Part shown: positions 25,176-46,178 of the stretch, in pieces
Numbering within the stretch: position 1 is the stretch's first letter
How the letters are laid out: each line of letters begins with the position of its first letter
Source of the DNA: Tropicimonas marinistellae
Lineage (GTDB): Bacteria > Pseudomonadota > Alphaproteobacteria > Rhodobacterales > Rhodobacteraceae
Direction: 5' to 3'
DNA: 64,000 bases
NCBI RefSeq assembly: GCF_001509585.1
Contig: NZ_LNCI01000001.1
Coordinates: 310,001-374,000 of the forward strand
Notes under the pieces: generated by a model
What the model was told of the DNA's origin: nothing
Seen by the model: the letters and a program-made list of their open reading frames with translations, nothing else
Database searches by the model: none
Program-made: the position numbers and the translations under genes

Positions 25176-25251
<76 letters not shown>

Positions 25252-25491: not shown

Positions 25492-26211
25492 TTGTCGACC
25501 TCCTGCAAGCGGACGCGCGGTCGCGGCGGTTGCTTCGGCAGCAGCTATTGCCGCGAGAGACGCGCTGAGGAGCGCAGCCAGAGACCCGCAGTCCTGACCG
25601 TTGTCGGCCTGCTCACCGAATTGCCGCACACGGCGCGAGGCCCCGCCTTGCGTGATTCCATGGCTGGGCTTGGCATCACAAATCTCGATTCCGTTCCCGC
25701 GCTGCTCTCCGGGATCGCGTAGGCGGTCGACCGTGAATGGCTGAGGGCCGGGCACCGCACCGACATTGGCGAGATCGGGCTGACATCCCTGCTGACAACA
25801 CTATCGGAGCGCTTTGATCGGGACCTGCCGAGCCTTTTCGATCCCACGCCAGCCCGGATCCGTACCGCGCTCGGTCGGCTCGCCTCGGGTGACCGCTTCG
25901 GCTCCCTGACGCGCAGTTATTTCGCCCGCGCCGTGGAGCAGACGCTGCAACATTATCTCCGCCGCGAGCTTTCTAATCACGTAGGCCCGGGACAGCGTTT
26001 TGCCAATGACGCAGATCGCCGGGCCTTCGATCAGGTGCTGGACCAACATGCCTGGGAAGCTGCGCGGATCGTGGAGAGCTATGCCGGTGGCTGGTACGGC
26101 AAGACGATCTGGCAAGGCCGCGGGGCCGAACCGGAGGACATCCGCGAGTTCACCCTCTTCTCGATGAAGAAGCTGCGGAGCGAGCTGGAACGGCGGAGCG
26201 ATGCCGCGTGA
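25492..26211 (+). pseudogene. Decayed gene of a QatC-like two-gene cassette (upstream partner)
   Basis: One reading frame runs through this stretch but is broken by a TAG at 25720-25722; the part before it also looks shifted. The readable C-terminal portion has GITNLDSVPALL, then LTRSYFARAVEQTLQHYL, ESYAGGWYGKTIWQ and FSMKKLRSELERR. Proteins ending in this way (GGWYGK... then a KLRxEL helix) occur directly upstream of QueC-like genes in defence-type cassettes, as here, where the next start (26201) overlaps its end by 11 bp. Function unknown and almost certainly lost. Confidence 0.55.
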
Positions 26212-26443
26212 GGTCCGCATCCGCCTGAACGGCCCGCTTGCGGGCGGGCAGAAGGAGCAATTGCCCTTCGACATCGACGGCACCGCCGTCAGCATGCGTT
26301 TTCGGGTTGGCGAGCTTGGTCGCAAGCAGGTCACGGCTGTCCCGGAAATGGTGCATGATCTGCTCGACATTGCCGCGACCCTTTACGCCGCCGACTGTAA
26401 CATCAGCCGATGGCGATCAGTGCTGCAGCGGCTGTGGCTTTGA
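26201..26443 (+). pseudogene. N-terminal fragment of a QatC-like (QueC-like) protein
   Basis: 80 codons. It begins MPREVRIRLNGPL and proceeds to MVHDLLDIAATLYAADCNISR, the N-terminal pattern (DLLDIAA.VYAAD...SR) of QueC-like proteins such as QatC of the Qat anti-phage system. After that pattern the frame goes to unrelated residues and stops, without the ATP-binding SGGxDS segment. The matching C-terminal part is at 42732-43508 on the same strand. Best read as a gene split by a 16.3-kb insertion or rearrangement. Confidence 0.6.
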
Positions 26444-26493
26444 GGCTCGTGTTGAACATTGGTCTATCCTTTGTCAGGTGAAGTTGACTGGAT

Positions 26494-26862
26494 TTAGCGA
26501 TTGAAGCCAGCGACATGGTCGCCGAACTCGGCAGCCAAGCCCATGCCTTGAATGGCCTGCTTTAACTCTGATGGAAGTTTGCCGAAAAAGTAGAACGCGC
26601 CGGGCGTGGCCACTTCGAGCAGGCTTTGGAAGTGGGGTCCCGCCGTTTCCTGAAGGTGGAAGCCGACTGCAGCCGCGTCTGCAAACTCGTCGCGGACATA
26701 GAGCGCGCCTTCGTCCTCCGACACGTAGACATGTACGGCCAATGCCCCGGGCTCGTTGGCTTCCATGGCGTCTGTGACGCCTTTGTAGATCGTCGTCAGA
26801 GCCGCAAGCCGGCCCGGCTTGGCCGTCCATTTGTAGACGACTGTAACTGCGTTGGTGTCCAT
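26494..26862 (-). CDS. Antibiotic biosynthesis monooxygenase (ABM) domain protein
   Basis: 122 residues. One ferredoxin-like ABM fold: YKWTAKPGRLAALTTIYKGV, then VHVYVSEDEGALYVRDEF, HLQETAGPHFQSLLEV. Such small cofactor-free monooxygenases oxidise quinones or aromatic compounds. Start at 26862 with GGAGAGAG upstream. It is divergent from a TetR gene and twin palindromes lie between them, so it is very probably repressed by that TetR in the absence of its ligand. Confidence 0.78.
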   Translation of the reverse strand: MDTNAVTVVYKWTAKPGRLAALTTIYKGVTDAMEANEPGALAVHVYVSEDEGALYVRDEFADAAAVGFHLQETAGPHFQSLLEVATPGAFYFFGKLPSELKQAIQGMGLAAEFGDHVAGFNR

Positions 26863-26904
26863 GTTCTCTCTCCGTGTCCAGGCTTCGTCTGATCAGCTCT
26901 GCTT

Positions 26905-26924
26905 AGGTAACTGATCGGTTACCT
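26905..26924. promoter_or_regulatory. TetR operator, site 1
   Basis: Near-palindrome AGGTAACTGATCGGTTACCT, consensus AGGTAACYGATCRGTTACCT shared with site 2. Located in the divergent promoter region between the ABM and TetR genes. Confidence 0.75.
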
Positions 26925-26951
26925 TGACATGGGTAACTGATCGATTACCTT
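26924..26951 (+). promoter_or_regulatory. Candidate tetR promoter overlapping both operators
   Basis: TTGACA at 26924-26929 and TACCTT at 26946-26951, 16-bp spacer. The -35 touches operator 1 and the -10 lies in operator 2, consistent with autorepression. Confidence 0.5.
26931..26950. promoter_or_regulatory. TetR operator, site 2
   Basis: GGGTAACTGATCGATTACCT, same palindromic core GTAACTGATCRRTTAC as site 1, centre-to-centre distance 26 bp. Confidence 0.75.
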
Positions 26952-26979
26952 TGAGTCAACGAAAAAAGTGAGGACGACG

Positions 26980-27567
26980 ATGCCAAGCCCAAAGGGATAC
27001 AAACGCGAGGACGTTCTGGACCGCGCGATAGAGCTGTTTCGAAGGCAAGGCTATTCCGCCACAAGCACGGCGGAACTGGTGGAAGAGCTGGGGATGAACC
27101 GGAAGAGTATGTATGCCGAGTTCGGGTCGAAGCAGGAACTCTTTGAAGCCGCGCTCGAGCGCTATAGCGAAATCAACCTCGCGCGTGTGCTTTCTCCGAT
27201 AGAGGCTCGAGGCGCGAACGCTCAAACAATACGCGAAGCCTTTCTCGGATACGCCTCCGCGAGCGAAACAAGGTATCGGGGTCTTGGTTGCCTCATGGCA
27301 AACACCGCTGTCGAAAGGGCGGCCCTTGATCCAGGCAGTGCGAGGTATGTCGATGCCTATCTACAACGCCTTGCGAAGGGGTTCCGCAACGCTCTCGAGA
27401 ACGCACGCAAAGAAGGCGATGTGGACGACGCGGCAGACCTGGACGATCTCGCGGCGCATTTCGTGAACTCGGTGGTGGGCATCTCGGCATTGCTGCGAGC
27501 AAAGGCGACGCCAGATCAGATGTACGCCGCGGGTCGAGGCGCGACATCCATGCTTGGAGCACGCTGA
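26980..27567 (+). CDS. TetR/AcrR family transcriptional regulator
   Basis: 195 residues. N-terminal HTH: LDRAIELFRRQGYSATSTAELVEELGMNRKSMYAEFGSKQELFEAAL, a textbook TetR DNA-binding domain, then a ligand-binding domain of the COG1309 type with GLGCLMANTAVE. Start ATG 26980 is preferred over GTG 26968 because GAGG is placed properly before it. It likely binds the two AGGTAACYGATCRGTTACCT operators and represses itself and the divergent ABM gene. Confidence 0.9.
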   Translation: MPSPKGYKREDVLDRAIELFRRQGYSATSTAELVEELGMNRKSMYAEFGSKQELFEAALERYSEINLARVLSPIEARGANAQTIREAFLGYASASETRYRGLGCLMANTAVERAALDPGSARYVDAYLQRLAKGFRNALENARKEGDVDDAADLDDLAAHFVNSVVGISALLRAKATPDQMYAAGRGATSMLGAR

Positions 27568-27882
27568 GGCCGAGCAGCAAGATCGGCCATCCAATTGGCC
27601 AACCTCATCGGCACCTTTGTCCGCATCTTCCCAACTCCTTGCCAGCGCTGCGAATGACGGCAGCGGACTTTGTTGGTTGACGGCGCCCGCCGACGGTCGG
27701 TCTGGGGACTATGGCTGTGCTGGCGAACACGCAACGGAGCGGTGATTGGCAGTAGCGCGCCCGAGAGAGGTCGCTCAGTCCGGTTGTGCAAGGACCGTCC
27801 TATGGGTCGATCCCGCGCTATCATGGACGTGTGCCGAGGAAGCAGGTCCCAGAGCCAAGAATAGGACTTCAAACGCTCAGCG
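27568..27882. other. Gene-free region between tetR and the exported protein
   Basis: 315 bp with degenerate sequence such as GCGCTGCGAATGACGGCAGC (27645-27664), which resembles other gene-free stretches of the window. No gene supported. Confidence 0.4.
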
Positions 27883-28818
27883 TTACAGTGTGACGTCCAC
27901 CTTTGTGGCCGGGTTCAGATCATCATTCGGGTCCGTCAGGATGCCCTCTGGGAAAGAAACCGAGATCGGCTGGTCTTTCGTGTCCATGCAGAGCATGTGG
28001 TTGTTGTCCCCATCACCCAGGTTGGCCAGAGCTGCAGGCTTTACGTCGCGCCGTGTCCCATCGGTTGCCTCGACCGTGATCGTGTAAAGATCGCGCTCCG
28101 CCTCGCCTGGTTCGGTACCGTCTTCCAGCGTCACGCCGCCCTCCCACGTGACACGGATTGCCTGGACGATGCCCTCTTTTGGGCAGAGGCTGCCCCTAAC
28201 GCGACGCGGGCCCAGAGTTCCGACAAGTGTCCAGTCTTCCACGACTTCGGCCAGAGTGATCGACGGCCCGTCTTCGAGGGGTATCACCGACACGCTGGCT
28301 CCACGAAAATCCACTGTTCCGTCGATGGAGTGCAGATGCCCGACGACGTCAACTTTGACCGGCGGATCGCTGTCAGCAGGTCCCAGTTGCCCTATCAGAA
28401 GGACCGTGCGCAACTCGCCCGGATCGGTGGCGGGCAAAACTGACGCGCAGTGCATAGTCCCGATCGCACCTGACCGTGTTGTGACCTGAAAGTCACCCGC
28501 CTGCATCGTGGCGACGTCTATCTCCGTTGAGAAGATCACAGGCATTCCAGTTTTGCCCTCTGATCCTCTGCAAATCACATTGGAGAGGCGTGGCAGCGCA
28601 TCGAGCCCGTGAAAGGCCGAAAGGAGCTCAGCAGATTGTCCATTTGCCTCTCTCGGAAGGCCTGCGTCCGCGGTCGTGTCGAAGAGTTCGCGATTCGAGA
28701 TATTGTCAGTCCAAGCCCCGGGTCCATAAGAAATAATCCAGATGATGCCAGCGCTGATCACCGCTGCCACAGCAACCAACCCACTTATCAAAGTGCGCTT
28801 CGAAATATACCTGAGCAT
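27883..28818 (-). CDS. Hypothetical exported or membrane-anchored protein
   Basis: 311 residues, not recognised. A hydrophobic segment at 9-29 (TLISGLVAVAAVISAGIIWII) acts as signal anchor; the remainder is a predicted beta-rich periplasmic domain with scattered cysteines (ICRGSEG, MHCAS, SLCPKEG, MLCMD). Repeated Asp/Gly-rich loops and DGTEPGEAERDLYTITVEATDGT suggest immunoglobulin-like strands. It has no partner gene and lies in the accessory stretch between the two QatC-like halves. Confidence 0.6.
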   Translation of the reverse strand: MLRYISKRTLISGLVAVAAVISAGIIWIISYGPGAWTDNISNRELFDTTADAGLPREANGQSAELLSAFHGLDALPRLSNVICRGSEGKTGMPVIFSTEIDVATMQAGDFQVTTRSGAIGTMHCASVLPATDPGELRTVLLIGQLGPADSDPPVKVDVVGHLHSIDGTVDFRGASVSVIPLEDGPSITLAEVVEDWTLVGTLGPRRVRGSLCPKEGIVQAIRVTWEGGVTLEDGTEPGEAERDLYTITVEATDGTRRDVKPAALANLGDGDNNHMLCMDTKDQPISVSFPEGILTDPNDDLNPATKVDVTL

Positions 28819-29108
28819 ACGACATACCTCCGCTCAATCAGGCTCACTGTTAATACTTACTCCGTACTCCCTGAGACCCAAATCAGGGTGTCGGAGATGC
28901 GAAACGCGTTTGAAAGAACCCGAATTGGCAGAGGGGCGATGCTTATCGGAATTCGCCGATCCGAACCATGCAGATTGCTACGACTACGATGCGACAGTTG
29001 GGTTCTCCATGAAAAACGGTCTGTCCGACAGATTCACCTTTGATGTGGTGAGCGAAGAATGTCCGGTTCCTGATTGCAGAGTCTGACAACTGGCGACCAC
29101 GCAGGGAG

Positions 29109-29142
29109 TGCTGCGCTGCCGCGGATGTCCGCGAAGTCGGCT
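29109..29142 (+). repeat. Degenerate interspersed repeat, copy 2
   Basis: 29 of 34 positions equal to 18548-18581 (TGCTGCGCTGCCG at the left, GTCGGCT at the right). Confidence 0.5.
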
Positions 29143-29171
29143 AAGCTGACTCTGAAAACGTCGTGAAGTGG

Positions 29172-29196
29172 TGGGCCGATCGGGTAGATCGGCCCA
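29172..29196 (-). terminator. Hairpin after the integrase pseudogene
   Basis: 10-bp stem TGGGCCGATC (29172-29181) / GATCGGCCCA (29187-29196), loop GGGTA, 6 bp past the integrase stop on the minus strand. No T-run. Confidence 0.5.
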
Positions 29197-29201
29197 ACTC
29201 G

Positions 29202-29834
29202 TCAAAGCTCGACGGACTCGGCGATTGAGAGCGCATCTTCCAGATCGACACCGAGATAACGGACAGTGCTATCCATCTTCATTTGTCCCAGTAGGAGTTG
29301 CACCGCTCTCAGGTTGCCAGTCTTACGATATATCTGCGCAACCTTGGTTCGACGCATCGAATGCGTTCCGTACGAAGTGGGGTCCGGGCCGATCGACTGG
29401 ACCCATTCTCGAACCAGGCGCGCATACTTGCGGCTGGAGACGAGCGGCCGCTCATGGAAGCGGCCTGGCCATAGGAACTCCGAACCGATCATCAAAGGAT
29501 CCGCGATTCACTGCGAGATCGATCTGCGCGTTCCTTCCGAAATCTCGAACCGAACTGGTTTGTCCGTTTTGCTTTGGATGATCGAAGCGCGCTCCTTGAC
29601 CAGTCCGGCAGCGTAAACATCCGCGACCTTGAGTTTCACGAGATCGCACCCTCGCAGTTTGCTGTCGATGGCAAGATTGAAGAGGGCCAGGTCACGATAC
29701 CGCTCGGCAAGTTCCAGTCGTTCCCGGATGGCCCAAACCTGCTTGGGCAGCAGCGGTCGCTTCTGACCGACAATTCGCCCCTTGTTCCACGGTTGTCGGC
29801 AAGCTCGGACAACAGGAAGGTCTACGTTTTCCAT
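29202..29834 (-). pseudogene. Small tyrosine recombinase/integrase with one in-frame stop
   Basis: One continuous frame of 210 codons encodes a short tyrosine recombinase of a type widespread in Rhodobacteraceae (LPKQVWAIRERLELAE, then SKLRGCDLVKLKVADV with the first catalytic Arg, THSMRR as the HxxR motif, and STVRYLG with the tyrosine). It is interrupted by a TGA at 29508-29510 where family members have tryptophan (ISQ-stop-IADPLMIG), i.e. a TGG to TGA change; the frame itself is not shifted. The usual LLGH histidine reads LLGQ. Probably inactivated, though an otherwise intact frame suggests a recent change. Confidence 0.82.
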
Positions 29835-30200
29835 GACGTTTCCTCAGATCCGCCACTCCCATCCGCAGCGCCAACCCGGCGTCGGCGACCCGGGATTTGC
29901 CTTTGGGGCTGCTTTCGGGAGATCTCCGAAGCCCAGCGTACGGCGGCTGTAACCTACCAACCTGCCGTTCGACGTTGGTATCCATCAACACCGTTCGCAA
30001 ACGCGGCATCGTTCAAGAAGGGCGCGCTCCGGCCGTTAATTGTACGGCGCAACGATGTCGGCAACGTACGTAATGAACGATTTCTTGGACGCAGGCTGAC
30101 CGGCGGGCAGTGGAACGAGTATACATGTTGCTTATCGATGAAAACGGTCCAGCCCCAATTTCGTCTACTGCAAAATGCTGAACATGCGGCGAGACAATGA
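29835..30200. other. Gene-free region beyond the integrase
   Basis: 366 bp. Would hold the integrase promoter. No gene, tRNA or clear repeat could be made out. Confidence 0.4.
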
Positions 30201-31379
30201 CTATAGGTCTGTCCAAGCCCCTCCGGCATCGTTGCTGTCAGCCGCGGCATGAAAGAAGTCGACCCCACGCGCGCCCTCTGCGAGCAGCGGAAGGTTGAGC
30301 AGACCATCCTCAAGCGCAACCCGGTCGCGACGCGCCTCAATGGCAACCGCCGCCTCGGTATAGAGATTGGCCCAGGCATCGGACAGCGCCTCGCCGTGGC
30401 CGCGCGGCAAGCGGATCATGCGCTCCGCGCGGGGATGCATGCCCGCGCCGGCACCACGGGTGATCGTCTGACGTGGTGCGTTGCGCATGTTTACGTGCAG
30501 GTGTTCGGGCATCTCATGATCCCATTCGATCCCGCCCTTTTCGCCGTACACCCGCAAGCGCAGCCCAGTCGTGTTGCCAATTGCGGCCTGCGACAGCCAC
30601 ATCACGCCCGGAGCGCCGTTTTCCAGCCGGAAGTTGATGAAGGACGTGTCTTCCATCGGCTTCTCGCCGCCGCAGACGTGGAAATCCGCACGCAGCTTCG
30701 CGATCCGCTGGCCGGTGACGAACTCCATCATGTGGACGGCGTGGGTGCCAATATCTCCGGTCGTGGCCGTTCTGCCGCCTTTGGCGGGGTCCAGCCGCCA
30801 GGCCAGTTGCTTGACGCTCGGGTCGAATGCACCTGCGCGCCCGTCCTGCGCATATTCGACCATGACCTGGCGCACGGAGCCGATTGCCCCCTCGGCAACC
30901 ATGCAGGCCGCTTGAACAACCATGGGATGATAGGCGTAGGGATAGGTGACGGCAAAGACGACGCCGGTGTTTTCCGCGATCTCGGCCATCGCGGCGCAGT
31001 CTTGCCGCGTGAGCGCAACGGGCTTGTCGCAGATGATATCGATCCCGGCCGCCATGAACGCCTCGGCGACCGGCCTGTGCAGGAAATTGGGCGTGCAGAT
31101 CGCGACCGCGTCGATACCATCGGTCCGCGCCGCCTCTTCCCGCGCCATCACGGAAAAGTCGGAATAGCTGCGCTCTTCGGCGATGAGCCAGTCTTTCCCG
31201 GACCTGCGCGCCGTTTCCGGGTCCGACGACAGGGCCCCGGCGACGATCTCCCAGCGACCCGAAAGGCGCGCGCCATTCGCGTGCCATTGAGCGACCAGCG
31301 AGCCGCGCCCGCCGCCGACGAAGCCGAGCCGCAGACGCCGTTGCGCGGCGGGATAGCTGGACGAATGCTTGTCATACAT
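30201..31379 (-). CDS. Gfo/Idh/MocA family oxidoreductase (C)
   Basis: 392 residues. NAD(P)-binding Rossmann motif GFVGGGRGSLVAQWH near residue 18, ICDKPVALT as the EKP-type motif with the conserved lysine, and GDIGTHAVHMMEFVTG in the substrate domain. Family acts on sugars, inositols and their derivatives. Last gene of a four-gene minus-strand cluster; ~40 bp separate it from oxidoreductase B, to which it is closely similar in plan. Cytoplasmic. Exact substrate unknown. Confidence 0.86.
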   Translation of the reverse strand: MYDKHSSSYPAAQRRLRLGFVGGGRGSLVAQWHANGARLSGRWEIVAGALSSDPETARRSGKDWLIAEERSYSDFSVMAREEAARTDGIDAVAICTPNFLHRPVAEAFMAAGIDIICDKPVALTRQDCAAMAEIAENTGVVFAVTYPYAYHPMVVQAACMVAEGAIGSVRQVMVEYAQDGRAGAFDPSVKQLAWRLDPAKGGRTATTGDIGTHAVHMMEFVTGQRIAKLRADFHVCGGEKPMEDTSFINFRLENGAPGVMWLSQAAIGNTTGLRLRVYGEKGGIEWDHEMPEHLHVNMRNAPRQTITRGAGAGMHPRAERMIRLPRGHGEALSDAWANLYTEAAVAIEARRDRVALEDGLLNLPLLAEGARGVDFFHAAADSNDAGGAWTDL

Positions 31380-31420
31380 GGCGTCTCTCCCGCCTTACCT
31401 TTCGCCTGTCGGGCGGGCCG

Positions 31421-32617
31421 TTACAGCCGCACCCATTCTCCGCCCGCCTCGTTCGAACGAACGGTGGCTTCTATGAACCGTACCCCGTCAGCGCCGTGGG
31501 CAACAGTTGGCAGGCCCAGCCACCCCTCGGGGATACCGACCCCATCCTTGCGCGCCACGACGGCCATGGCGAACTCCGTGTAGAGATTGCCCCAGGCCTC
31601 GATGATGCCTTCCGGGAATCCGCGCGCGGTCCGCACCAGCCGTTCAACCGACGGGCTGACGCCGTGGCCGTGACCGCGGCTGATGATCCGGTCCGCCTCG
31701 CCGAAGCGATTGAACCGGAGCTGTTCGGCCTTCTCCAGATCCCACTCGATGCCCCCTTCGGAGCCGAAAATGCGCAGCCGCAGACCACCACGGTTCCCCG
31801 GTGCCAACCGGGTTGCCATCAATGTTCCCGGCACCTCGCCGGTATGGCGGGTCCAGGCGAAGAACGTGTCCTCCACGGGTTTGGGAGCGCCGCAGACGTG
31901 GAACTCGGCCCTGAGATCGGTCAGCGTGAGCCCGCTGACGAATTGTGCCAGATGCGCGGCATGGGTTCCGATATCGCCGACGCAGCTGGTTTTCCCGGTC
32001 TTGGACGGGTCGAGGCGCCATTTGACGTGGGGCGCGTCGGCCACCTCGTCGGGCGTCATCCAGTCCTGCAGAAACTCGACATGGATCTGGTTGATCCGGC
32101 CCAGCCCGCCCTCGGCCACGATCTGGCGCGCTTGCCGGATCATCGGAAAGCAGGACATCACATAAGACACGCCGAAGACGCAGCCCGAGGTTTCGGCAAG
32201 CCCGATCAGATCCTCGGCCTCGGACATCTCGTTGGTCAGCGGCTTGTCACAGAGCACGTCGATGCCGGCATTCAGGAAAGCCTTAGCTGCAGCGTGGTGC
32301 AGGTGGTTGGGCGTCGTGATCATCACTGCGTCCACACCCTCGGGATGGCGCGCCTCGCCCTCGGCCATCTCCTCGAAGGAGGCATAGGCGCGATCCGGGG
32401 CGATCCGGAACCCGGCCGCTCGTGCCTTCGCATTTTCCGGATCGGAGGAAAGCGCGCCGGCGACCACCTCCCAGTGGTCGCTCATCCGGGCGGCCATTGC
32501 CTGCGTCGCGGCGATCCGCCCGCCGCCAGCGATCCCGAGGCGCAGCCTGCGGTTGAGCTGCGGAAAAGGACCGTCGAAGTCTTGATTTTCGGGGAATAGC
32601 TTCATCGCGGGCCTCAT
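31421..32617 (-). CDS. Gfo/Idh/MocA family oxidoreductase (B)
   Basis: 398 residues. Rossmann motif GIAGGGRIAATQAMA, the VLCDKPLTNEM motif, and GDIGTHAAHLAQFVSG with the conserved histidine. Its ATG overlaps the stop of the cupin-like gene by 4 bp, implying translational coupling. Like C it has WRLDPxKxG...GDIGTHA in the substrate domain, so B and C look like paralogues acting in successive or reversible oxidation/reduction of one sugar. Confidence 0.86.
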   Translation of the reverse strand: MRPAMKLFPENQDFDGPFPQLNRRLRLGIAGGGRIAATQAMAARMSDHWEVVAGALSSDPENAKARAAGFRIAPDRAYASFEEMAEGEARHPEGVDAVMITTPNHLHHAAAKAFLNAGIDVLCDKPLTNEMSEAEDLIGLAETSGCVFGVSYVMSCFPMIRQARQIVAEGGLGRINQIHVEFLQDWMTPDEVADAPHVKWRLDPSKTGKTSCVGDIGTHAAHLAQFVSGLTLTDLRAEFHVCGAPKPVEDTFFAWTRHTGEVPGTLMATRLAPGNRGGLRLRIFGSEGGIEWDLEKAEQLRFNRFGEADRIISRGHGHGVSPSVERLVRTARGFPEGIIEAWGNLYTEFAMAVVARKDGVGIPEGWLGLPTVAHGADGVRFIEATVRSNEAGGEWVRL

Positions 32618-33270
32618 TCTGGGGGCGTGGCGCCTTCGGGCAGCATTTCAACTGCCATAAAAATCGAGGGCGTGATCGTTTCGAACTGGTGCCAGGGATA
32701 GTTCCCTTCGGCATCGAACATCGGGCGATGCGTGCTGCCGGGCGCCATCGGCTCTTCGAGATAGAGCGTGTCGACATCCCTTTCGCGGCATTGCTGCATC
32801 TTTCCGAAGCCCACGATCTGGGTATGCACCTCGCGGAAGCCCGGCACCGGGCAGAAGGCGTGGTCGCGGTGCAGCCCGACATTCAGCGGAACCGAGCCGG
32901 AATGGTAGAAGGTGAAGCCGAACTGACCGATCCAGACCTTGGGCGACATGTAATGGCTGACGCCGCGCAGGCGCTCTTCCTGCCGGACGTCGAAAGCCGA
33001 GGGCCAGACCTTCTTGACCTCCTCAAAAAGCGCCGCCTCGTCGGGATAGTCGGCGAAGCGTTCAACAATCACGGCATGGTCGAGATCGCGCAGCTCAACA
33101 TCGCGCACAACCGTCGATTGCAAGTAACGAAGCTCTTGGTCGCGGATGCCAATCGGCGTTTCGCTCAGGTTCAGCACGATGACCTTGCCATGAATCTCCA
33201 GTTTGGGCTCATCGGAGACGATGCGCGTTGTGAAAAATGGCTCGGAGATGGAGAGGGTTTCGATCGGCAT
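32614..33270 (-). CDS. Conserved hypothetical, cupin-like protein
   Basis: 218 residues. Probable double-stranded beta-helix: a His-rich stretch LHRDHAFCPVPGFREVHTQIVGFGKM, followed by LYLEEPM and PGSTHRPMFDAEGNYPWHQFET, where several His/Glu could bind a metal. No signal peptide. It lies between oxidoreductases A and B and is coupled to both (1-bp overlap with A, 4-bp with B). A sugar isomerase/epimerase or lactonase-like step is possible, but not shown by sequence. Confidence 0.6.
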   Translation of the reverse strand: MPIETLSISEPFFTTRIVSDEPKLEIHGKVIVLNLSETPIGIRDQELRYLQSTVVRDVELRDLDHAVIVERFADYPDEAALFEEVKKVWPSAFDVRQEERLRGVSHYMSPKVWIGQFGFTFYHSGSVPLNVGLHRDHAFCPVPGFREVHTQIVGFGKMQQCRERDVDTLYLEEPMAPGSTHRPMFDAEGNYPWHQFETITPSIFMAVEMLPEGATPPE

Positions 33271-34421: not shown

Positions 34422-34514
34422 ACGTTCCTCTCCAAGTGTCCCTCTAAGCAAGCCGGAACCGGCGGTAGAGTCGCAATCAATTTCGGATCACGGATAAATA
34501 CTGATGCACCAGTT

Positions 34515-34549: not shown

Positions 34550-34572
34550 GATTTGATTTGGAGTTCTACGCC

Positions 34573-35595: not shown

Positions 35596-36040
35596 GCCGG
35601 CTGCCGGAGTTAATACGGCCATTTTGAATCAATGACATTCTTCGTAACCATAGGGCCTGAAACTCCGTTCCGAATTTCGGATGCTGGCCGGGCCCGGTTG
35701 CCGCCTGGAGAGACGGATCCTGGGGATGTGACTGAAGACCAAAGCGGCCCTTGTCGTGCCCTTCGCTGCACAAGTCACAAATGACGCCATTGGGCCGTTC
35801 ACGACCCTTTCGGTGCACTCCGGATTGCGCAATTCGCCAGTGCAGAGAACAGCAAAGGGCGGCAACCGGTCATTCGCTGCAATTGCTGAGCTGAGCATTT
35901 GGAGCGATGACAGGGGACATTGACGCACGAGTCTGGGCCCCTGTGTTGGTTCGATACTTTGGCGTATGGTCTAAAGCGATTTTCGGCACGGTGGTCACTT
36001 GGATGAGTTGCGCCTAAGTTCATGGAACAACTGGGTGGGA
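35596..36040. other. Gene-free region between lacI and lysR
   Basis: 445 bp. Contains sequence of the degenerate kind seen elsewhere in the window (for example GTCATTCGCTGCAATTGCTG near 35868-35887, complement of GCAGCGAATGAC). Presumably includes the lysR promoter. No gene. Confidence 0.4.
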
Positions 36041-36958
36041 ATGGGGTCTGTGGCTTTCACGCTTCGTCAGATTCAGTACTTTGTGGCCGTTGCGGAGCAC
36101 GGCTCCATCAGTCATGCGGCGCAGGCGTTGTCGATTTCCCAGTCGTCAGTGACGGAGGCGGTACGGTTCCTCGAGGATGACCTGGGGGTGAAGCTTTTCG
36201 ACCGACACCCGAGAGGACTGCGGATCACCCACAAGGGGCACCAGTTTCTGCGGCATGCCACGTCGATCCTGGCAGAGGTGTCAGGCGCGCGGCGGGCGCT
36301 GGAACTGGAAGGCGAGGAGATTTCCGGGACGCTTCATCTTGGTGTGACCTCGCTGATGGCGGGCTACGTGATGTCTGATCTGCTGGCCCGCTACCGACGC
36401 GCCAATCCGCTGGTGGAGGTGTCGGCTATCGAGGACAACGGAGAATATCTGGAACACCTGTTGGTCGGGGGCGAACTGGACGTGGCGGTGATGGTCACGT
36501 CGAACCTCAACGACAGGATGGCGCTGCAGGTGGAAATTCTTGAGGTGTCGCCCTATCGCCTCTGGCTGCCGATCGGCCATCGACTTGTGGCTCAGGATAG
36601 CATCACTCTCGACGACCTGACGGGCGAGCAACTGATCATGCTGGACATCGACGAGATGGGGGAGGCGGCGGTCAAACTCCTGTCGGCGCTCGGCACACGC
36701 CCGCGTATCGCCTTTCGGACCAGGTCGGTCGAAGCTGTGCGCAGCCTGGCGGCCACCGGGGCGGGAATCGCCCTGCTGCCGGACCTCGTTTATCGGCCCT
36801 GGTCGCTCGAGGGGGATCGCATCGTTTCCCGGGATGTCTCGGGGTCACTTCCGGTGGTTCAGGTCGGGATGGCTTGGCGAAAGGGCTCGCCACTCTCCGA
36901 CGCGGCACGAGATTTCATTGCGATTGCGCAGGAGCATCAATCGGTTAGAGAGCGCTGA
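36041..36958 (+). CDS. LysR-family transcriptional regulator
   Basis: 305 residues. Winged HTH at the N-terminus (TLRQIQYFVAVAEHGSISHAAQALSISQSSVTEAVRFLED), then the LysR substrate domain (HLGVTSLMAGYVMSDLLARYRRANP). Start taken at ATG 36041 (GGGTGGGA close upstream); TTG 35999 would add 14 residues. It points towards the ABC transporter genes and a T-N11-A palindrome lies in the gap, so it probably regulates the polyamine-type operon. Confidence 0.88.
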   Translation: MGSVAFTLRQIQYFVAVAEHGSISHAAQALSISQSSVTEAVRFLEDDLGVKLFDRHPRGLRITHKGHQFLRHATSILAEVSGARRALELEGEEISGTLHLGVTSLMAGYVMSDLLARYRRANPLVEVSAIEDNGEYLEHLLVGGELDVAVMVTSNLNDRMALQVEILEVSPYRLWLPIGHRLVAQDSITLDDLTGEQLIMLDIDEMGEAAVKLLSALGTRPRIAFRTRSVEAVRSLAATGAGIALLPDLVYRPWSLEGDRIVSRDVSGSLPVVQVGMAWRKGSPLSDAARDFIAIAQEHQSVRER

Positions 36959-36965
36959 CATTCGG

Positions 36966-36982
36966 TATCGGAAATTCCGATA
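36966..36982. promoter_or_regulatory. LysR-type operator (T-N11-A palindrome)
   Basis: TATCGGAA-A-TTCCGATA, perfect 8-bp arms with a central A. It contains T-N11-A, the standard LysR box, 8 bp after the lysR stop and 105 bp before the solute-binding protein start. Confidence 0.65.
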
Positions 36983-37086
36983 GCGTCGTTTTGTATTTTG
37001 AATTTGCGAATTCCAAGCCCGGCGCTCATCCTGTTTGGCAAACCAGAAGCCCTCAAGGGCTCAGCTTTGTCCAACAGGAGACCGAA

Positions 37087-38247
37087 ATGCGCGCACTTTC
37101 CTACAAACTTGGCCTACTTGCATCAGCCAGCCTGATCTCGACCCAGGCCGTCGCGGCCGACATGATCACCGAGATCGGTGAAGGCGAAGGCCAGGTGAAC
37201 ATCGTGGCCTGGCCCGGCTACATCGAGCGAGGCGAGACCGACGCCAACTTCGACTGGGTGACCAAGTTCGAAGAAGCCACTGGCTGTATGGTCAACGTCA
37301 AGACCGCGAACACCTCCGACGAGATGGTCGCGCTGATGAACGAGGGTGGATTCGACCTCGTGACCGCCTCCGGCGACGCCTCGCTGCGGATGATCGCCGG
37401 TAAGCGGGTTCAGCCGGTCAACATCGACTTGATCCCGAGTTGGGCGAACGTGGACGACCGCCTGAAGGAAGCGCCCTGGCATTTCGTGAATGACACGCAT
37501 TACGGCACGCCCTACATGTGGGGGCCGAACGTGCTGATGTATTCGACCGATGCCTTCCCCGAAGCACCGACGAGCTGGTCGGTTGTGTTCGAAGAAACCA
37601 CGCTGGCCGACGGCGAGAGCAACAAGGGGCGTGTGCAGGCTTATGACGGGCCGATCCACATTGCGGATGCCGCCAACTACCTGATGCACCACAATCCGGA
37701 CCTTGGCATCACCTCGCCCTACGAGCTGAACCAGGAACAGTATGACGCGGCTCTCGAACTGCTGCGCGGGCAGCGCGAACTGGTCTCGCGCTACTGGCAC
37801 GATGCCTTCATCCAGATTGACGACTTCAAGAACGAGGGCATGGTCGCCTCGGGCTCCTGGCCGTTCCAGGTCAACCTGCTGCAGGGCGGCGGCGCAAATG
37901 TCTCCTCGGTGATCCCGGTCGAAGGCGCTACCGGCTGGGCCGATACCACGATGATGCATGCCGAGGCCGAGAACCCGAACTGCTCCTACATGTGGATGGA
38001 GCACACGCTGGCCTCGAACCTGCAATCCGACCTCTCGGTCTGGTTCGGCGCCAACCCGGCGGTTCCAGCCGCCTGCACCGACGGGCGCGGTATGCAGACC
38101 GCCGAGGGCTGCACCAAGAATGGCATGGACGACTTCGAGAAGATCAAGTTCTGGCAGACGCCCGTGTCCAAGTGCGAAAGCCAGGGCGAGTGCGTGCCCT
38201 ACTACCGCTGGGTTTCCGATTACATCGGCGTGATCGGCGGTCGCTGA
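37087..38247 (+). CDS. Polyamine-type ABC transporter, solute-binding protein
   Basis: 386 residues, periplasmic. Signal peptide with cleavage after ...TQAVAA; the mature protein starts DMITEIGEGEGQ. PotD/YdcS-type fold: NIVAWPGYIERG, a hinge region and YMWGPNVLMYSTD. Start ATG 37087 has AGGAGA upstream; the longer frame would place the signal peptide internally. First gene of an operon with ATPase, two permeases and an aldehyde dehydrogenase, i.e. the composition of E. coli ydcSTUVW. The ligand may be putrescine or a related amine; not provable from sequence. Confidence 0.88.
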   Translation: MRALSYKLGLLASASLISTQAVAADMITEIGEGEGQVNIVAWPGYIERGETDANFDWVTKFEEATGCMVNVKTANTSDEMVALMNEGGFDLVTASGDASLRMIAGKRVQPVNIDLIPSWANVDDRLKEAPWHFVNDTHYGTPYMWGPNVLMYSTDAFPEAPTSWSVVFEETTLADGESNKGRVQAYDGPIHIADAANYLMHHNPDLGITSPYELNQEQYDAALELLRGQRELVSRYWHDAFIQIDDFKNEGMVASGSWPFQVNLLQGGGANVSSVIPVEGATGWADTTMMHAEAENPNCSYMWMEHTLASNLQSDLSVWFGANPAVPAACTDGRGMQTAEGCTKNGMDDFEKIKFWQTPVSKCESQGECVPYYRWVSDYIGVIGGR

Positions 38248-38273
38248 TCCCCACATCCTGACACCACTCACAT

Positions 38274-38295
38274 CCATCGCCCTACGGGGCGGTGG
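38274..38295 (+). terminator. Intra-operon hairpin after the solute-binding gene
   Basis: Stem CCATCGCCC (38274-38282) / GGGCGGTGG (38287-38295) with one G-U pair and a TACG loop, between the solute-binding protein and ATPase genes. Such hairpins commonly protect the first cistron's mRNA so that the binding protein is made in excess. Confidence 0.6.
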
Positions 38296-38314
38296 ATCCT
38301 CCCGAGAGACTCCC

Positions 38315-39316
38315 ATGAGAACATCAGCAGTCCGATTCGATGGCGTGTCCCGCCATTATGGTGAAGTGCGTGCGGTCGATGCGGTCGACCTCGACATTGC
38401 CGAAGGCGAGTTCTTTGCCATGCTCGGCCCCTCCGGTTCCGGCAAGACGACCTGCCTGCGCCTGATCGCCGGCTTCGAGCAGCCGACCGATGGCGACATC
38501 GTCATCTTCGGCGAAACGGCGCAGGGGGTGCCGCCCTACAAGCGCCACGTGAACACGGTCTTCCAGGATTACGCGCTGTTCCCGCATCTGAACGTGCTCG
38601 ACAACGTGGCTTACGGGCTGATGATCGCCGGCAAGCCGAAGCGCGAGCGCCATGCAGCGGCCGAGGCCGCACTGGAACTGGTGGCCCTGCCGGGCTACGG
38701 CGCGCGCAAACCGTCGGAGCTTTCCGGTGGTCAGCGGCAGCGGGTGGCCTTGGCGCGTGCGCTCATCAACGAGCCCCGCGTGCTGCTGCTGGACGAGCCG
38801 CTTGGCGCGCTCGACCTGAAACTGCGCGAGCAGATGCAGGACGAACTCAAGGACCTCCAGCGCAAGCTCGGCATCACCTTCATCTTTGTCACCCATGATC
38901 AGGGCGAGGCCCTGTCGATGGCCGACCGCGTGGCGGTCTTCAACGAGGGCAAGATCGTCCAGATCGGCAAACCCGAAGATATCTACTACCGACCCGAAGT
39001 GCCCTTCGTGGCCGATTTTGTCGGCTCCTCCAATGTTCTACCGCCCCGTGTGGTCGAGAAGATGGCCGGCCAATGGAGCCATGCCTCCGTCCGACCGGAG
39101 GCCGTCAAACTGGTCGATGCCGGCATTGGCGCCGACGGGTTGCACGCAACGGTTCACTCCACCGCCTTCATCGGTACCGCGACCCGCGTGTCGCTGGATC
39201 TCGACGGATTCTCGATGGTCGCGCTGCTGCCCAAGGGGGCCCGGATCCCCGATGCCGGGGAACAGGTCCATGTCACCTGGGGTTCCGAAGACCTGCACCT
39301 GATGGACGCCGCGTGA
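38315..39316 (+). CDS. Polyamine-type ABC transporter, ATP-binding protein
   Basis: 333 residues. Walker A GPSGSGKT at 38-45, signature LSGGQRQRVALARAL, Walker B LLLDEPLGALD, and a C-terminal TOBE-like domain typical of PotA/YdcT. Drives import. It ends TGA overlapping the next gene's ATG (39316). Confidence 0.94.
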   Translation: MRTSAVRFDGVSRHYGEVRAVDAVDLDIAEGEFFAMLGPSGSGKTTCLRLIAGFEQPTDGDIVIFGETAQGVPPYKRHVNTVFQDYALFPHLNVLDNVAYGLMIAGKPKRERHAAAEAALELVALPGYGARKPSELSGGQRQRVALARALINEPRVLLLDEPLGALDLKLREQMQDELKDLQRKLGITFIFVTHDQGEALSMADRVAVFNEGKIVQIGKPEDIYYRPEVPFVADFVGSSNVLPPRVVEKMAGQWSHASVRPEAVKLVDAGIGADGLHATVHSTAFIGTATRVSLDLDGFSMVALLPKGARIPDAGEQVHVTWGSEDLHLMDAA

Positions 39317-40257
39317 TGACCGATCACGTTCTGGAAACCGACCGCTCCGGCGGCCTGAGGGGCATATCGGACGCGCTCTGGCGCAATCCGCGCCTCGTGA
39401 TCCTGCTGCTGCTGACCCCACCGGCCTTGTGGCTCGGCATCGTCTATCTCGGCTCACTCTTTGCGCTGCTGGCGCAGAGTTTCTTTTCGATCGACGAGTT
39501 CTCGGGGCTGATCCAGTACGAGTTCACGCTCAAGACCTACAAGGAACTCTTCACACCGACCAATCTCGACATCATTATCCGTACGGTGGTGATGTCGGCC
39601 TGCGTGACCATTGCCGCGGCCATCGTGGCCTTTCCAATCGCCTACTACGCGGCGCGCTATGCCCGTGGGAAATGGAAGGCGCTCTTCTATCTCGGTGTCA
39701 TGCTGCCGCTCTGGTCGAGTTATCTCGTGAAGGTCTATTCCTGGAAGCTGATCCTGGCCAAGGAAGGTATCCTGAACTGGCTTTTCGAGACGCTGCATCT
39801 GAGCTGGCTGCTAAATGCCTATCTGTCGATCCCCGTCATCGGCGGGAATTCCCTGTCGGTCAGTTGGACCGGCACCTTCCTGGTGTTCCTCTATGTCTGG
39901 CTGCCCTTCATGATCCTGCCGATCCAGGCCTCGTTGGAGCGTGTGCCGCGCTCGATGACAGAAGCCTCCGGTGATCTCGGCGCCTCACCGCGCCAGACCT
40001 TTTGTCACGTGTTGTTCCCGCTGGCGCTTCCGGGGGTGATCGCTGGCTCGATCTTCACCTTCTCGCTGACACTCGGCGACTACATCATTCCGCAGATCGT
40101 GGGTTCCTCGCGCCGCTTCATCGGACAGGCAGTCTATGCCTACCAGGGCACCGCCGGAAATATCCCGCTGGCCGCCGCCTTTGCCGTGGTGCCCATCGTG
40201 ATTATGGCCTTCTACCTCTGGATCGCCAAAAGAATGGGGGCGTTCGATGCGCTCTGA
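39316..40257 (+). CDS. Polyamine-type ABC transporter, permease 1
   Basis: 313 residues, inner membrane. About six transmembrane segments starting with [25 protein letters not shown]; the EAA loop is [25 protein letters not shown], PotB/YdcU type. Start at 39316 (MTDHVLETD) overlaps the ATPase stop codon. Overlaps the next permease by 11 bp. Confidence 0.92.
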
Positions 40258-41053
40258 TCGTGCTCCCTTGGGCCTCAAGATCGCCGCGGGTCTGGGCCTT
40301 GCCTTTATGCACCTGCCGATCCTGCTGATCTTTGTCTATGCCTTCACCACCGAGGACAAGTCCTACCAGTGGCCGCCCCCCGGCTTCACCACCAAGTGGT
40401 TCGGCGTGACCTGGGCCCGCCCGGATGTCTGGGAGGCACTGTCGCTCTCGGTGCGGGTTGCCGCGATCTCCACAGCCATCGCTCTGGTGCTCGGCACGCT
40501 CTGCGCCGCCGCCGTGAGCCGGACCAAGTTCTTCGGCCGCGAGGTGGTATCGCTGATGGTCATCCTGCCGATCGCGCTGCCGGGGATCATCACCGGTATC
40601 TCGCTTCGCTCGGCCTTCAACCTCGCGGACATTCCGTTCAGCTTCTGGACCATCGTGCTGGGCCACGCGACCTTCTGCGTCGTCGTTGTCTACAACAATG
40701 CCGTGGCGCGGTTCCGCCGCACCTCCGGGTCGCTGGTGGAGGCATCGATGGATCTCGGCGCGGACGGGTTCCAGACCTTCCGCTATGTGATCCTGCCCAA
40801 CATCGCCACGGCGTTGCTGGCAGGCGGGATGCTCGCCTTCGCGCTCAGCTTCGACGAGGTGATCGTCACCACCTTCACCGCCGGTCAGCAGCAGACGTTG
40901 CCGATCTGGATGCTGGAGGAACTCGTTCGCCCGCGCGAACGCCCGGTCACAAATGTCGTCGCCATGGTCGTGGTGATCGTGACGTTCCTGCCGATCCTCG
41001 GCGCCTATTACCTCACCCGCGGCACCGATACCGTTGCCGGACAGGGCAAATAA
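40247..41053 (+). CDS. Polyamine-type ABC transporter, permease 2
   Basis: 268 residues, inner membrane, six predicted segments. EAA loop [22 protein letters not shown]; PotC/YdcV type. Begins within the last codons of permease 1, so the two permeases are made together and form the heterodimeric channel. The downstream dehydrogenase starts 17 bp on. Confidence 0.92.
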
Positions 41054-41070
41054 GAACAGGGAGAAACCTC

Positions 41071-42495
41071 ATGGAAACCAACATGCTCATCGGCAGCTCC
41101 TTCGAGGCCGGAACCGAGATCGAGGAGTTGGTGCTCAACCCGCGCACGGGCGAGACAATCCTCCGGATGCCGGAGGCCAATGGCAACCAGATCGACCGCG
41201 CCGTTGCCGCTGCCCGCGCTGGCTTTGCCACCTGGTCCCGCACCACACCGGCCGAACGCTCCGAAAAGCTTCTGGCAATCGCTGACGCGGTGGACGCCAA
41301 TTCGGAAGAACTGGCACAGCTGGAAGCGCTCAACTGCGGCAAGCCGATCAACGAAGTCCGCAACGAAGAGGTCGGCGCCGTGGCGGACTGCTTCCGCTAT
41401 TTCGCCGGCGCAGTGCGCAACATGCACGGGCCGCTGGCGGGCGAATACATGGAGGGCCACACCTCGATGATTCGCCGCGATCCAATCGGCGTCGTCGCCT
41501 CCATCGCGCCGTGGAACTACCCGATGATGATGATGGCCTGGAAACTGGCCCCGGCGCTTGCGGGCGGCAACACGGTGGTTCTGAAGCCTTCCGAGCAGAC
41601 GCCGCTCACCGCCCTGAAACTGGCGCAAATCCTGTCCGGCATCCTGCCCGAAGGCGTGGTCAACGTCATCGTCGGTCAGGGCGCCAGCGTCGGCAATACT
41701 CTGATCAACCACCCGGGCGTCGACATGATCTCGATCACCGGCGACATCGCCACCGGCAAGAAGGTGCTGGTTGCTGCGGCCAATACGGTCAAGCGCACCC
41801 ATCTGGAACTGGGCGGTAAGGCCCCGGTGATCGTCTATGACGACGCCGATCTCGACCGCGTGGTCGAGGGGCTGAAGGCGTTCGGCTACTACAACGCGGG
41901 CCAGGACTGCACCGCTGCCTGCCGGATCTATGCGGGCCGGAAGATCTACGACAAGCTTGTCGGTGACCTTTCCGGCGCGGTCTCCTCCATCGTCTACGAC
42001 AATGCCGACGACACGCTGAACGAGATCCCGCCGCTGATCAGCCAACGCCAGCGCGACCGGGTGGCCAGCTTTGTTCAGCGCGCCGCCGATCAGAGCCACA
42101 TGGAAATCGCCACCGGCGGTGCGCTTCACGACGGCCCGGGCTTCTACTACCAGCCGACCGTGATCGCGGGCGCGCAACAAACCGACGAGATTGTCCAGCG
42201 CGAGGTGTTCGGCCCCGTGGTTTCGGTCACCCCCTTCGGTGATGATGACGACGTTATCGGCTGGGCTAACGACAGCCAGTACGGCCTCGCCTCCTCGGTC
42301 TGGACCACCGACATCGGCAAGGCGATGGATGCTTCCTCCCGCCTGAACTACGGTTGCACCTGGGTGAACACCCACTTCATGCTGGTCAACGAGATGCCGC
42401 ATGGCGGCCTCAAGCAGTCCGGCTACGGCAAGGACATGTCGATGTTCGCGCTCGAGGACTACACCGCCGTGCGCCACGTGATGATCGCGCATTGA
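41071..42495 (+). CDS. Aminobutyraldehyde-type aldehyde dehydrogenase
   Basis: 474 residues, the same length as E. coli YdcW (gamma-aminobutyraldehyde dehydrogenase). NAD-dependent ALDH motifs: [16 protein letters not shown], the LELGGKAP glutamate and catalytic Cys280 in [10 protein letters not shown]. It oxidises an aminoaldehyde to the amino acid, probably 4-aminobutanal to GABA. AGGGAGA precedes the ATG at 41071. Last gene of the operon and followed by a strong terminator, which closes the unit. Confidence 0.9.
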
Positions 42496-42525
42496 CCTGA
42501 TCGTTCCAGATTTCCAAACCGATTG

Positions 42526-42556
42526 ACGACCCGGGATAACCCCGGGTCGTTTCGTT
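42526..42556 (+). terminator. Rho-independent terminator after the ABC/dehydrogenase operon
   Basis: 10-bp perfect stem ACGACCCGGG (42526-42535) / CCCGGGTCGT (42541-42550), loop ATAAC, followed by TTCGTT. Confidence 0.8.
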
Positions 42557-42731
42557 GAAACTTTGGACGATCCTGAAACAACTTGGCGATTGTGAAGGTC
42601 GATCTTTCACTATGTCTCTAATGTCAGGTCCAAAAAAGCCGCAGCGCAGCGCGCGGTTGTTGCTCTTAACGCCGGTTTGGGCCGTTCGCGACTAACCCTA
42701 GTATGTTGCACCTTCAAAATGGGCAAGGTGA

Positions 42732-43508
42732 GTAAAGGTCGGGAATGCGCATGTGTCGGCGACCAAATTGACAAAGGTCCAGAAAGATCTCGTTGAGGCC
42801 CTCGGACGCCATGTGGGCGACGACCGCATCCTGCATGTGCCACTGACAGCCCAGCTGAACGACGGTGTTCGCAGGGAACGCACGCAGCGCAGCCGGTCCT
42901 TCCACTTTGCGTCACTCGGTGTTGCGGTTGCCGAGATGTTCGGGCTGAAAGCGGTGGAGTTCTTCGAGAACGGGGTGGTCAGTCTGAACCTGCCACCGGT
43001 GGCGCAGGTCGTTGGCGCCCGGGCGACCCGTTCGGCCCATCCAAAGGCTCTGAACGGGCTGGGACGGCTATTCACGCCGTTATTGGGATATCGTCGCAAG
43101 GTCCGCAACCCGTTCCTGTTGCGAACCAAGGGCGATGTCCTGGAGACAATGCGGCCTCTGGGGATGGCCGACGAGATCGAGCGAACACGCAGCGGTGCCG
43201 ATGTCCACCACCTTTCCGACATGTACCACCATTGTGGACGCTGCTCCCAGTGCATCGACAGGCGCTTCGCGGTTCTGGCTCAGGGCCACGCAACGCACGA
43301 TCCGGCCGGGACTTATGCGGTGGACCTGTTCGACGGCGCCCGTCCACGTGTGCAGGATCGGGAGAGGGTCCTGTCCTACGTCCGCAATGCGCGCTTTTTC
43401 AATATCTCCGATGCCGCACAACTGCTGCGCGGGTTTCCCGAGATTGCGCGGGTGATCGACGATGCCGGCTGCTGCAAGGAGGAGGACAGCGCGCGGCGTG
43501 CGGTTTAG
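42732..43508 (+). pseudogene. C-terminal fragment of a QatC-like (QueC-like) protein
   Basis: Open from just after a TGA at 42729 to the stop at 43508. From AHVSATKLTKVQKDLVEAL onward it follows QueC-like QatC proteins: TQRSRSFHFASLGVAVAEMFG, FFENGVVSLNLPPV, GARATRSAHP, NPFLLRTKGDV, and the zinc motif HHCGRCSQCIDRRF, then YVRNARFF. The N-terminal ATPase part is missing; its start is found at 26201-26443 on the same strand, and the last ~50 residues expected in relatives may also be missing. A start at GTG 42753 is possible but no good ribosome site is seen. Function in the ATP-pyrophosphatase sense is not expected without the SGGxDS segment. Confidence 0.65.
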
Positions 43509-43569
43509 ACGGCACGGCGACGTTTGAGGGAGGCCCAGCCGCAATCTGCCAGGGGCTCCCGTGCAGGAC

Positions 43570-46167: not shown

Positions 46168-46178
46168 CTCTTCCTCCT

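Follow-up and report, generated by a model that had tools for sequence, protein, structure and literature searches.

The 64,000-nucleotide window analysed here, a stretch of contig NZ_LNCI01000001.1 of Tropicimonas marinistellae in which position 1 is the first letter, contains a gene for an enzyme related to QatC of the Qat (qatABCD) defence system that has been cut into two pieces by a 16.3-kb block. Together with a broken upstream gene, here called orf1, the pieces belong to a cassette beside a tRNA-Ala(CGC) gene, and this cassette is a dead relic, damaged in at least three places. The split itself is a commonplace case of a mobile cassette decaying; of more interest is the family to which the intact relatives belong, a widespread two-gene cousin of Qat consisting of orf1 and the QatC-like enzyme. 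Taken as a whole, the explanation given below, which combines the dead remnant with a proposed function of the intact copies, is probably the right one. The remnant and its flanks comprise the following features.

25176..25251, plus strand: tRNA-Ala (CGC), the start site of the cassette (ARAGORN)
25252..25319, plus strand: left end of the cassette, with CCA, about 7 variable bases, CAGACAGTTA and two GATCGCACC 11 bp apart (25300, 25311); same layout in locus L077
25440..26208, plus strand: orf1 pseudogene with a TTG start, frameshifted near 25517 and interrupted by TAG at 25720-25722 (tblastn with the orf1 of locus L063)
25933-26211, plus strand: open 3' open reading frame (ORF) of the orf1 pseudogene
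26201..26410, plus strand: left piece, residues 1-70 of the QatC-like protein (tblastn, codon comparison); the ORF continues to 26443 in foreign sequence
26411..42746 (16,336 bp), no strand assigned: inserted mosaic block (26400-42800 has no blastn match to L063)
42747..43508, plus strand: right piece, QatC-like residues 177 to about 417, then a stop (tblastn; residue check L229H, T273A, C326G)
43531..45195, minus strand: right flank, with a glutamate-synthase-like gene (named by eye) next to which homology to another Tropicimonas genome resumes

The left piece (26201-26410, plus strand) corresponds to residues 1-70 of the intact 616-amino-acid protein encoded at L063 (64% identity, E = 1e-22, tblastn), and the right piece (42747-43469, plus strand) to residues 177-417 of the same protein (65%, E = 5e-93). 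The initial annotation had proposed a single QueC/QatC-type gene in two halves, on the same strand and in the right order. Searched separately, both halves align to this one full-length homologue in the order of the intact protein, which bears the proposal out, and the ORFs named for the halves are both present where they were placed. A profile built from four full-length relatives (L063 included) also matches the two pieces (E = 1.6e-22 and 1.4e-109). The PADLOC QatC profile, which is the only PADLOC match of the window gene, recognises the right piece at 6.5e-24 (2.3e-24 when taken from 42732; profile positions 187-371) and the left piece weakly, at 0.012, in the correct order (profile positions 50-81). 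Sampling of 394 genomes in the family, this one included, gave matches to the right piece in 31, and all 16 matched ORFs of 615-671 amino acids match the left piece as well in their N-terminal part (E = 1e-12 to 0.003). The weak left-piece match to the general QatC model would fit two unrelated QueC-like fragments that stand in order by chance, but both pieces match one protein at 64-65% identity and this protein is intact at the same site; two unrelated genes or a chance similarity were rejected on account of that intact copy, and such a coincidence is next to impossible.

Codon comparison with L063 places the breaks at 26410/26411 and 42746/42747. Residues 71-176 (106 codons, 318 bp) are missing between them, and the SGGLDS motif (SGGxDS) lies within the deleted stretch, so that the ATP-binding middle is absent, as had been read at the outset. 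Searching the genome for the missing middle gives a single match, the qatC (29% identical) of another qat locus, on contig C4, and a relocation of the middle to another part of the genome was rejected accordingly. Beyond about residue 417 the 3' third of the gene is lost as well; an extension of the right piece to 43631, suggested by L045, was dropped because homology to the chromosomal flank starts at 43531. The genome is a 41-contig draft, and a misjoin of unrelated sequences inside the gene might produce such an arrangement. This is very unlikely, since the two sides of the block carry parts of one gene in the right order, the longest repeat common to the junctions within 15 bp on either side is 5 bp, and a misjoin should have left the 106 missing codons elsewhere in the assembly, where none were found. 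The window locus is, with near certainty, the split relic of one QatC-like gene.

An intact gene without the block, which the initial annotation had suggested looking for in related roseobacters, was found at the same tRNA site in Tropicimonas sp. IMCC6043 (genome G399, contig NZ_SELO01000019.1; L063 and L077 are both on this contig). The order there is a thioredoxin-like gene (named by eye), tRNA-Ala(CGC), orf1 (257 amino acids) and the uninterrupted QatC-like gene (616 amino acids), followed by a convergent tyrosine recombinase (350 amino acids) and then helix-turn-helix (HTH) genes. The same tRNA-Ala(CGC) occupies this site in eight other genomes of the genus, including L063 with its intact cassette. 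To the right of the relic, sequence from 43531 is 84% identical over 110 bp to L050, and the glutamate-synthase-like flank gene has 81-94% identity in four other genomes of the genus. A DUF5996 protein at 45226-46182 (Pfam E = 2e-108) adjoins that gene.

Matches to orf1 and the QatC-like gene were found in three of nine Tropicimonas genomes, namely the window relic, the intact copy of G399, and G007. The last of these has the left end of the cassette both at tRNA-Ala(CGC) (end of L060), where the contig stops at orf1 codon 21, and at tRNA-Thr(CGT) (L237:1-1353), where orf1 is open and the contig end cuts the enzyme gene off after about 108 codons. The second contig contains an exact copy of the final 60 bases of the first, and a third carries the integrase and the 3' part of the enzyme gene; G007 has either two copies of the cassette or one shared assembly path. 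Locus L042 of the same genome (G007:C61) carries cas9 and cas1 of a type II CRISPR system at 4168-8750 (PADLOC Cas9 4e-82, Cas1_II 4.8e-97; a cas2-like gene by eye) beside the QatC-like gene and integrase of G007. In G396, the sequence after tRNA-Ala(CGC) (L065, 10158-10233) carries what looks by eye like a comparable left-end motif, with repeats resembling GATCGCAC, and the genome has no orf1 or QatC-like match; this is perhaps a related element with other cargo. The idea that the locus is a hot spot, which the initial annotation had offered as an alternative, thus gains modest support from a cassette end at tRNA-Ala(CGC) in three of nine Tropicimonas genomes and, by eye, a similar end in a fourth.

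The pair in the window cannot work because the ATP-binding loop is deleted and the partner gene is broken. The orf1 pseudogene is 84.6% identical to the L063 orf1 over residues 1-26 and 68.8% over residues 50-257 (tblastn). For the enzyme, 46 columns are invariant among 30 relatives (alignment A4); 14 of these fall in the deletion, 29 are kept and three are changed in the window (L229H, T273A and C326G). Set against decay as their cause, 14 members of alignment A1 show 0-4 changes at the 32 remaining conserved positions (a zero is inevitable for several, which are genes also included in A4), with four reached by the distant intact relatives L019 and L020. The three changes in the window are therefore by themselves no proof of decay. 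The telling change is the lost Cys326 rather than the number of changes: this residue is invariant in A1 and A4 and probably a zinc ligand, to judge from the QatC motif in PMC13329287. Neither the cassette recombinase nor the HTH genes were found in the window, and the cassette recombinase family has no match across the whole genome. QatC-like ORFs at L017, L026, L091 and L104 also look split or shortened, and cassette loss may therefore be frequent.

The block that separates the two pieces holds the following features.

26411..26459, minus strand: start of a gene truncated at the left junction, 16 codons long and resembling a signal peptide by eye (sequence)
26494..27567, minus and plus strands: ABM monooxygenase gene (minus) and TetR regulator (plus) (Pfam ABM 3.6e-8, TetR_N 1.5e-15)
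27883..28818, minus strand: gene whose function is unknown (L072 has a 75% identical protein)
29127..29892, minus strand: broken XerC-type tyrosine recombinase gene (ORF pieces 29202-29495 and 29508-29834)
30201..35595, no strand assigned: three Gfo/Idh/MocA oxidoreductases, a 218-amino-acid gene and a LacI-type regulator (Pfam)
35999..42495, plus strand: LysR, solute-binding protein, ABC ATPase, permeases and aldehyde dehydrogenase, a polyamine-type operon (Pfam)

The contents listed in the initial annotation (regulators, Gfo/Idh/MocA oxidoreductases and a polyamine-type ABC operon) agree with Pfam, although the second permease (40247-41053) was named by eye and was outside the Pfam query. 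The 218-amino-acid gene between the oxidoreductases (32614-33270) has no Pfam match at 1e-8. The broken recombinase gene matches Pfam Phage_integrase and NCBIfam XerC, all under the curated cut-offs, and has no match with the cassette-integrase profile, so that it is not the integrase of the cassette itself. A 92% copy of it (a 210-amino-acid ORF) is present on contig C16 of the same genome and DNA matches of 71-76% occur in many genomes of the family; it looks like a repeated mobile gene.

Relatives of the block were found part by part. Positions 36050-42495 are colinear at 76-77% identity in three loci, L066-L068 (G074, G197 and G067); the oxidoreductase part is 73% identical in both G126 (31431-34331) and G201 (31545-34409); the ABM/TetR part (26504-27540) is 75% identical in G082, with the pair occurring together in L073; and 27905-28740 is 75% identical in G005. 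Some part of the block is matched in 291 of 295 genomes, mostly through common gene families, in a comparison that scored one or two candidates per genome and that linked copies could escape. Each of the eight loci compared carries one part of the block only, and the closest relatives of the parts are unlinked. A target-site duplication or junction repeats were rejected, as the match at the junctions is 5 bp only, and so was a repeated element at the right junction, where 42496-42750 matches elsewhere in the genome by 19 bp only (E = 0.6). The block appears to be a composite acquisition by illegitimate joining, with low certainty on the number of events. Arrival as a single island, in one event rather than piecemeal, would suit the one interruption, the one 318-bp loss and the lack of end repeats, but is rather unlikely given that each compared locus holds only one of the parts. 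The view that a defence gene was exchanged here for catabolic cargo is not borne out, as the cassette is damaged at no fewer than three sites, the parts are unlinked in the eight loci, and the genome retains qatABCD.

The observed anatomy, gene order and losses, together with the intact copy at the same site, are consistent with the following history. A small integrative cassette would have entered beside tRNA-Ala(CGC) in the order end, orf1, QatC-like gene, convergent tyrosine recombinase and HTH genes, the last two being lost here. Then orf1 would have been frameshifted, the mosaic block would have come to sit inside the QatC-like gene with the loss of 318 bp, and a further deletion would have taken the 3' third of that gene and the mobility genes.

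Relatives of the enzyme were collected by scanning genome contigs with a profile (417 relatives, the best 80 inspected; the rest may include true QatC) and from a second collection of viral contigs, IMG/VR (169 relatives, best 80 inspected). A convergent tyrosine recombinase follows in 20 of the 80 genome loci, mostly in Rhodobacteraceae. Where such integrase loci have more than 400 bp of upstream sequence, a tRNA gene adjoins orf1 in 16 of 17 (the exception is L079), against 3 of 58 loci without integrase (L093, L098 and L104; Fisher p = 1.8e-12). The tRNAs at these 19 loci are Lys(TTT), Thr(TGT/CGT), Arg(TCT) and Ala(CGC). At the tRNA-linked left ends CCA is followed by about 7 variable bases and then by a CAAnnnCTTA-like motif (by eye), and two exact copies of GGTAAGC lie 11 bp apart in 16 of the 19 loci; L087 and L092 have one exact copy, and L077 and the window have two GATCGCACC in place of GGTAAGC at the same spacing. 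From this layout we infer that the repeats may serve as integrase arm sites, with a crossover region of about 7 bp. One result speaks against an element of this kind: in the downstream sequence covered, none of the 19 loci has a second copy of the tRNA 3' end (at least 12 bp), so that the far end of the element was not located and may lie further out. On balance, the intact form is very likely a tRNA-linked integrative cassette.

The gene pair extends well beyond these cassettes. Directly upstream of the enzyme gene, orf1 is found in 77 of the 80 genome loci; in L096 and L097 the contigs start inside the enzyme gene, and L144 has upstream sequence with no orf1 match. It is likewise upstream in 74 of the 80 viral-contig loci, the other six having no upstream sequence. 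The product of orf1 has about 260 amino acids, is predicted to be helical and begins with MGHxRLGxLP. A start codon followed by G[H/Q]..[L/I] was found in 76 of 77 genome copies (75 with MGH; L108 lacks the 5' part), and because the starts were picked by this motif, Met-Gly in the 76 is a consequence of that choice; what the count shows is that 76 of 77 copies contain the motif. Among the viral contigs the motif is present in 68 of 74 copies; of the other six, five are truncated at the edge of the contig and the sixth has MGHIRVG. Eight of the ten positions of MGHxRLGxLP reach at least 0.92 after weighting, which places it among the most conserved blocks of orf1. The AlphaFold2 model of orf1 is helical, with a predicted local distance difference test (pLDDT) score of 88.9 and residues 1-6 below 50. 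No significant Pfam match was obtained for orf1, the search of its profile against solved structures gave nothing credible, and tblastn in phage and plasmid collections found no orf1, though IMG/VR contains relatives of the enzyme.

The best match of the enzyme model in the PDB is QatC of the QatB-QatC complex (9y01_B, E = 5e-17, TM score 0.69 by target), followed by QueC and then Cap9 (Cap9-CdnD). The QatC cluster motifs given in PMC13329287 are D(x)4R(x)7WxR, SGGxDS, RxRxxxF/Y, ExG, HP, P(x)4TK and C(x)19CGxCxxRR; by eye they are present in conserved A4 columns with different spacings (R-to-WxR 11, CGxCSQCxDRR). The window copy has SGGxDS and WxR deleted and one Cys of the Cys motif changed. 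A two-gene QatC-like operon with a tRNA-linked integrase was not found described in the literature searched, which is weak evidence of novelty as preprints and most subscription papers were outside the search.

The genes next to relatives outside the cassette clade were scanned in L099 to L142 (L143-L156 lay outside the scan and L108 gave none), with at most two genes of 120-900 amino acids per side and 148 proteins in all. Pfam identified AAA_24 in 14 of these, serine recombinase domains in 13 and DUF2924 in 9; among the 25 listed of 129 matched PADLOC models were SoFic (4), AbiEii (3) and type I methyltransferase (2). The force of these figures for a defence role is lessened in that the counts are raw and come with no control set and the PADLOC methyltransferase and Fic models are broad.

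The initial annotation had treated the gene as a component of qatABCD, and in this respect it was mistaken. The one intact relative scored, the L063 protein, reaches 219.9 bits and the window fragment 93.5, against a cut-off of 280 for the NCBIfam QatC model NF041925. Neither qatB nor qatD turned up in any of the 80 genome loci or the 80 viral loci, qatD having been searched for with a phmmer query from the genome itself that matched true Qat loci; 58 of the genome loci have 3 kb on both sides for the qatA, qatB and qatD search. A single phmmer query, the genome's own qatA, gave one weak match in the 80 genome loci (L103) and none in the 80 viral loci, and the L103 protein, a different ATPase, fits PADLOC PDC-S20 better (1.6e-62 vs 8.9e-14). 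No qatA or qatD stands beside orf1 and the QatC-like gene at the intact L063 locus. The orf1 of L043 has no PADLOC match, and orf1 has no phmmer match to QatB. A full Qat operon that degenerated by losing qatA and qatD would account for the PADLOC and NCBIfam QatC models being the best matches; the intact same-site copy with no adjoining qatA or qatD, the missing qatB and qatD in all 80 loci, the better PDC-S20 fit at L103, the lack of a QatB match for orf1 and the missed QatC cut-off make it highly improbable. As the name of a superfamily QatC is correct, but it does not make the gene a member of Qat. Elsewhere in the same genome there is a complete, open qatABCD operon (L055:5966-10833, G000:C4), all four genes of which match PADLOC models strongly (QatA at 1.4e-240).

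In intact copies, the QatC-like enzyme would attach a group, which may be a 7-deazaguanine, to the glycine at the N-terminus of orf1 (the MGHxRLG tail) at the expense of ATP, and the pair would act against phage. The two-gene family shares with Qat the enzyme fold, the motifs, the gene order and a Met-Gly helical partner, and modification of Gly2 is the simplest model. According to PMC13279940, QatB and QatC alone are enough against some phages, lambda-vir among them, and the N-terminal motif of QatB is essential, that motif being MGTS on a tail of 30-90 residues; in type IV cyclic oligonucleotide-based antiphage signalling systems (CBASS), Cap9 conjugates deazaguanine to the N-terminal glycine of its partner. 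By analogy with QatBC and Cap9, the chances that the enzyme modifies Gly2 of orf1 are about even, and a defence role of the intact pair is slightly favoured.

Several points count against this assignment. No PDB structure matches the orf1 fold at E ≤ 0.001 (the first 50 of 492 weaker matches were listed), although the library includes the QatB-QatC complex 9y01. The comparison of orf1 with QatB profiles is weak (hhalign probability 44, E = 2e-4, 90 columns). The substrate analogy therefore relies on gene position and the N-terminus, and orf1 and QatB are not demonstrably homologous, with tail motifs that differ. As described in PMC13279940, moreover, QatC has neither the Tyr nor the Asp with which QueC and Cap9 hold the nucleobase, and what it produces is unresolved.

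Alternatively, the intact operon may regulate its own element rather than serve in defence, with a winged-helix-like C-terminal domain of the enzyme binding DNA and the pair controlling integration or transfer. HTH or Trans_reg_C (winged-helix) matches below threshold, located C-terminally in 4 of the 7 proteins tested, and the linkage to recombinases of two kinds, are in line with it. These recombinases differ, however, and the QatC fold and motifs suggest protein modification; in 23 of the 80 relatives, furthermore, the enzyme match ends by query residue 516 or earlier, so that the C-terminal part is not kept family-wide. Self-regulation is accordingly rather unlikely, and the defence model set out above is preferred.

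The two-gene family bears on what QatC does to QatB and on the ability of QatBC alone to defend. A natural pair with a strictly kept Met-Gly-His tail would offer a simple system for studying N-terminal modification. It also means that a match to a QatC model need not indicate a Qat operon, given that the window gene has QatC as its only PADLOC match and no other Qat gene was found beside its intact relatives.

Compared with known systems, the cassette resembles tRNA-targeting integrative elements in its recombinase, an excisionase-like HTH gene and short direct repeats beside the tRNA 3' end, and is unlike them in using several tRNA genes (Lys, Thr, Arg and Ala; two in G007) and in the second tRNA-end copy that was not found. 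With type IV CBASS the pair shares a QueC-fold enzyme and a partner with an N-terminal glycine. It differs in that orf1 is not a recognised CD-NTase (no CD-NTase match in orf1, and none among the 25 listed of 48 Pfam families for the 148 neighbours) and in that Cap9 is a much shorter enzyme (about 185 amino acids, PMC13329287). Compared with Qat, the two-gene loci have no recognisable qatA, qatB or qatD nearby, the partner has a short MGH tail (MGHxRLG) in place of the longer MGTS tail of QatB, the enzyme is longer (616 amino acids in L063) and in the clade of the window has an additional winged-helix-like part at its C-terminus, and this clade is linked to a tRNA gene and an integrase. In common with Qat, the enzyme has a QatC-type QueC domain with the same motifs and fold, and just upstream lies a predicted helical partner whose low-confidence N-terminus starts with Met-Gly. 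We tentatively suggest, at somewhat less than even confidence, that these loci are an undescribed family of mobile two-gene immune operons in which a QatC-like ligase modifies the N-terminal glycine of its own small helical partner. The MGHxRLGxLP tail of this partner recurs in genomes that bear the labels of several phyla, and the family travels with at least two unrelated types of recombinase and has members on viral-catalogued contigs; after Qat and type IV CBASS, such a family would be the third natural QueC-based protein-modification system, reduced already to a minimal pair.

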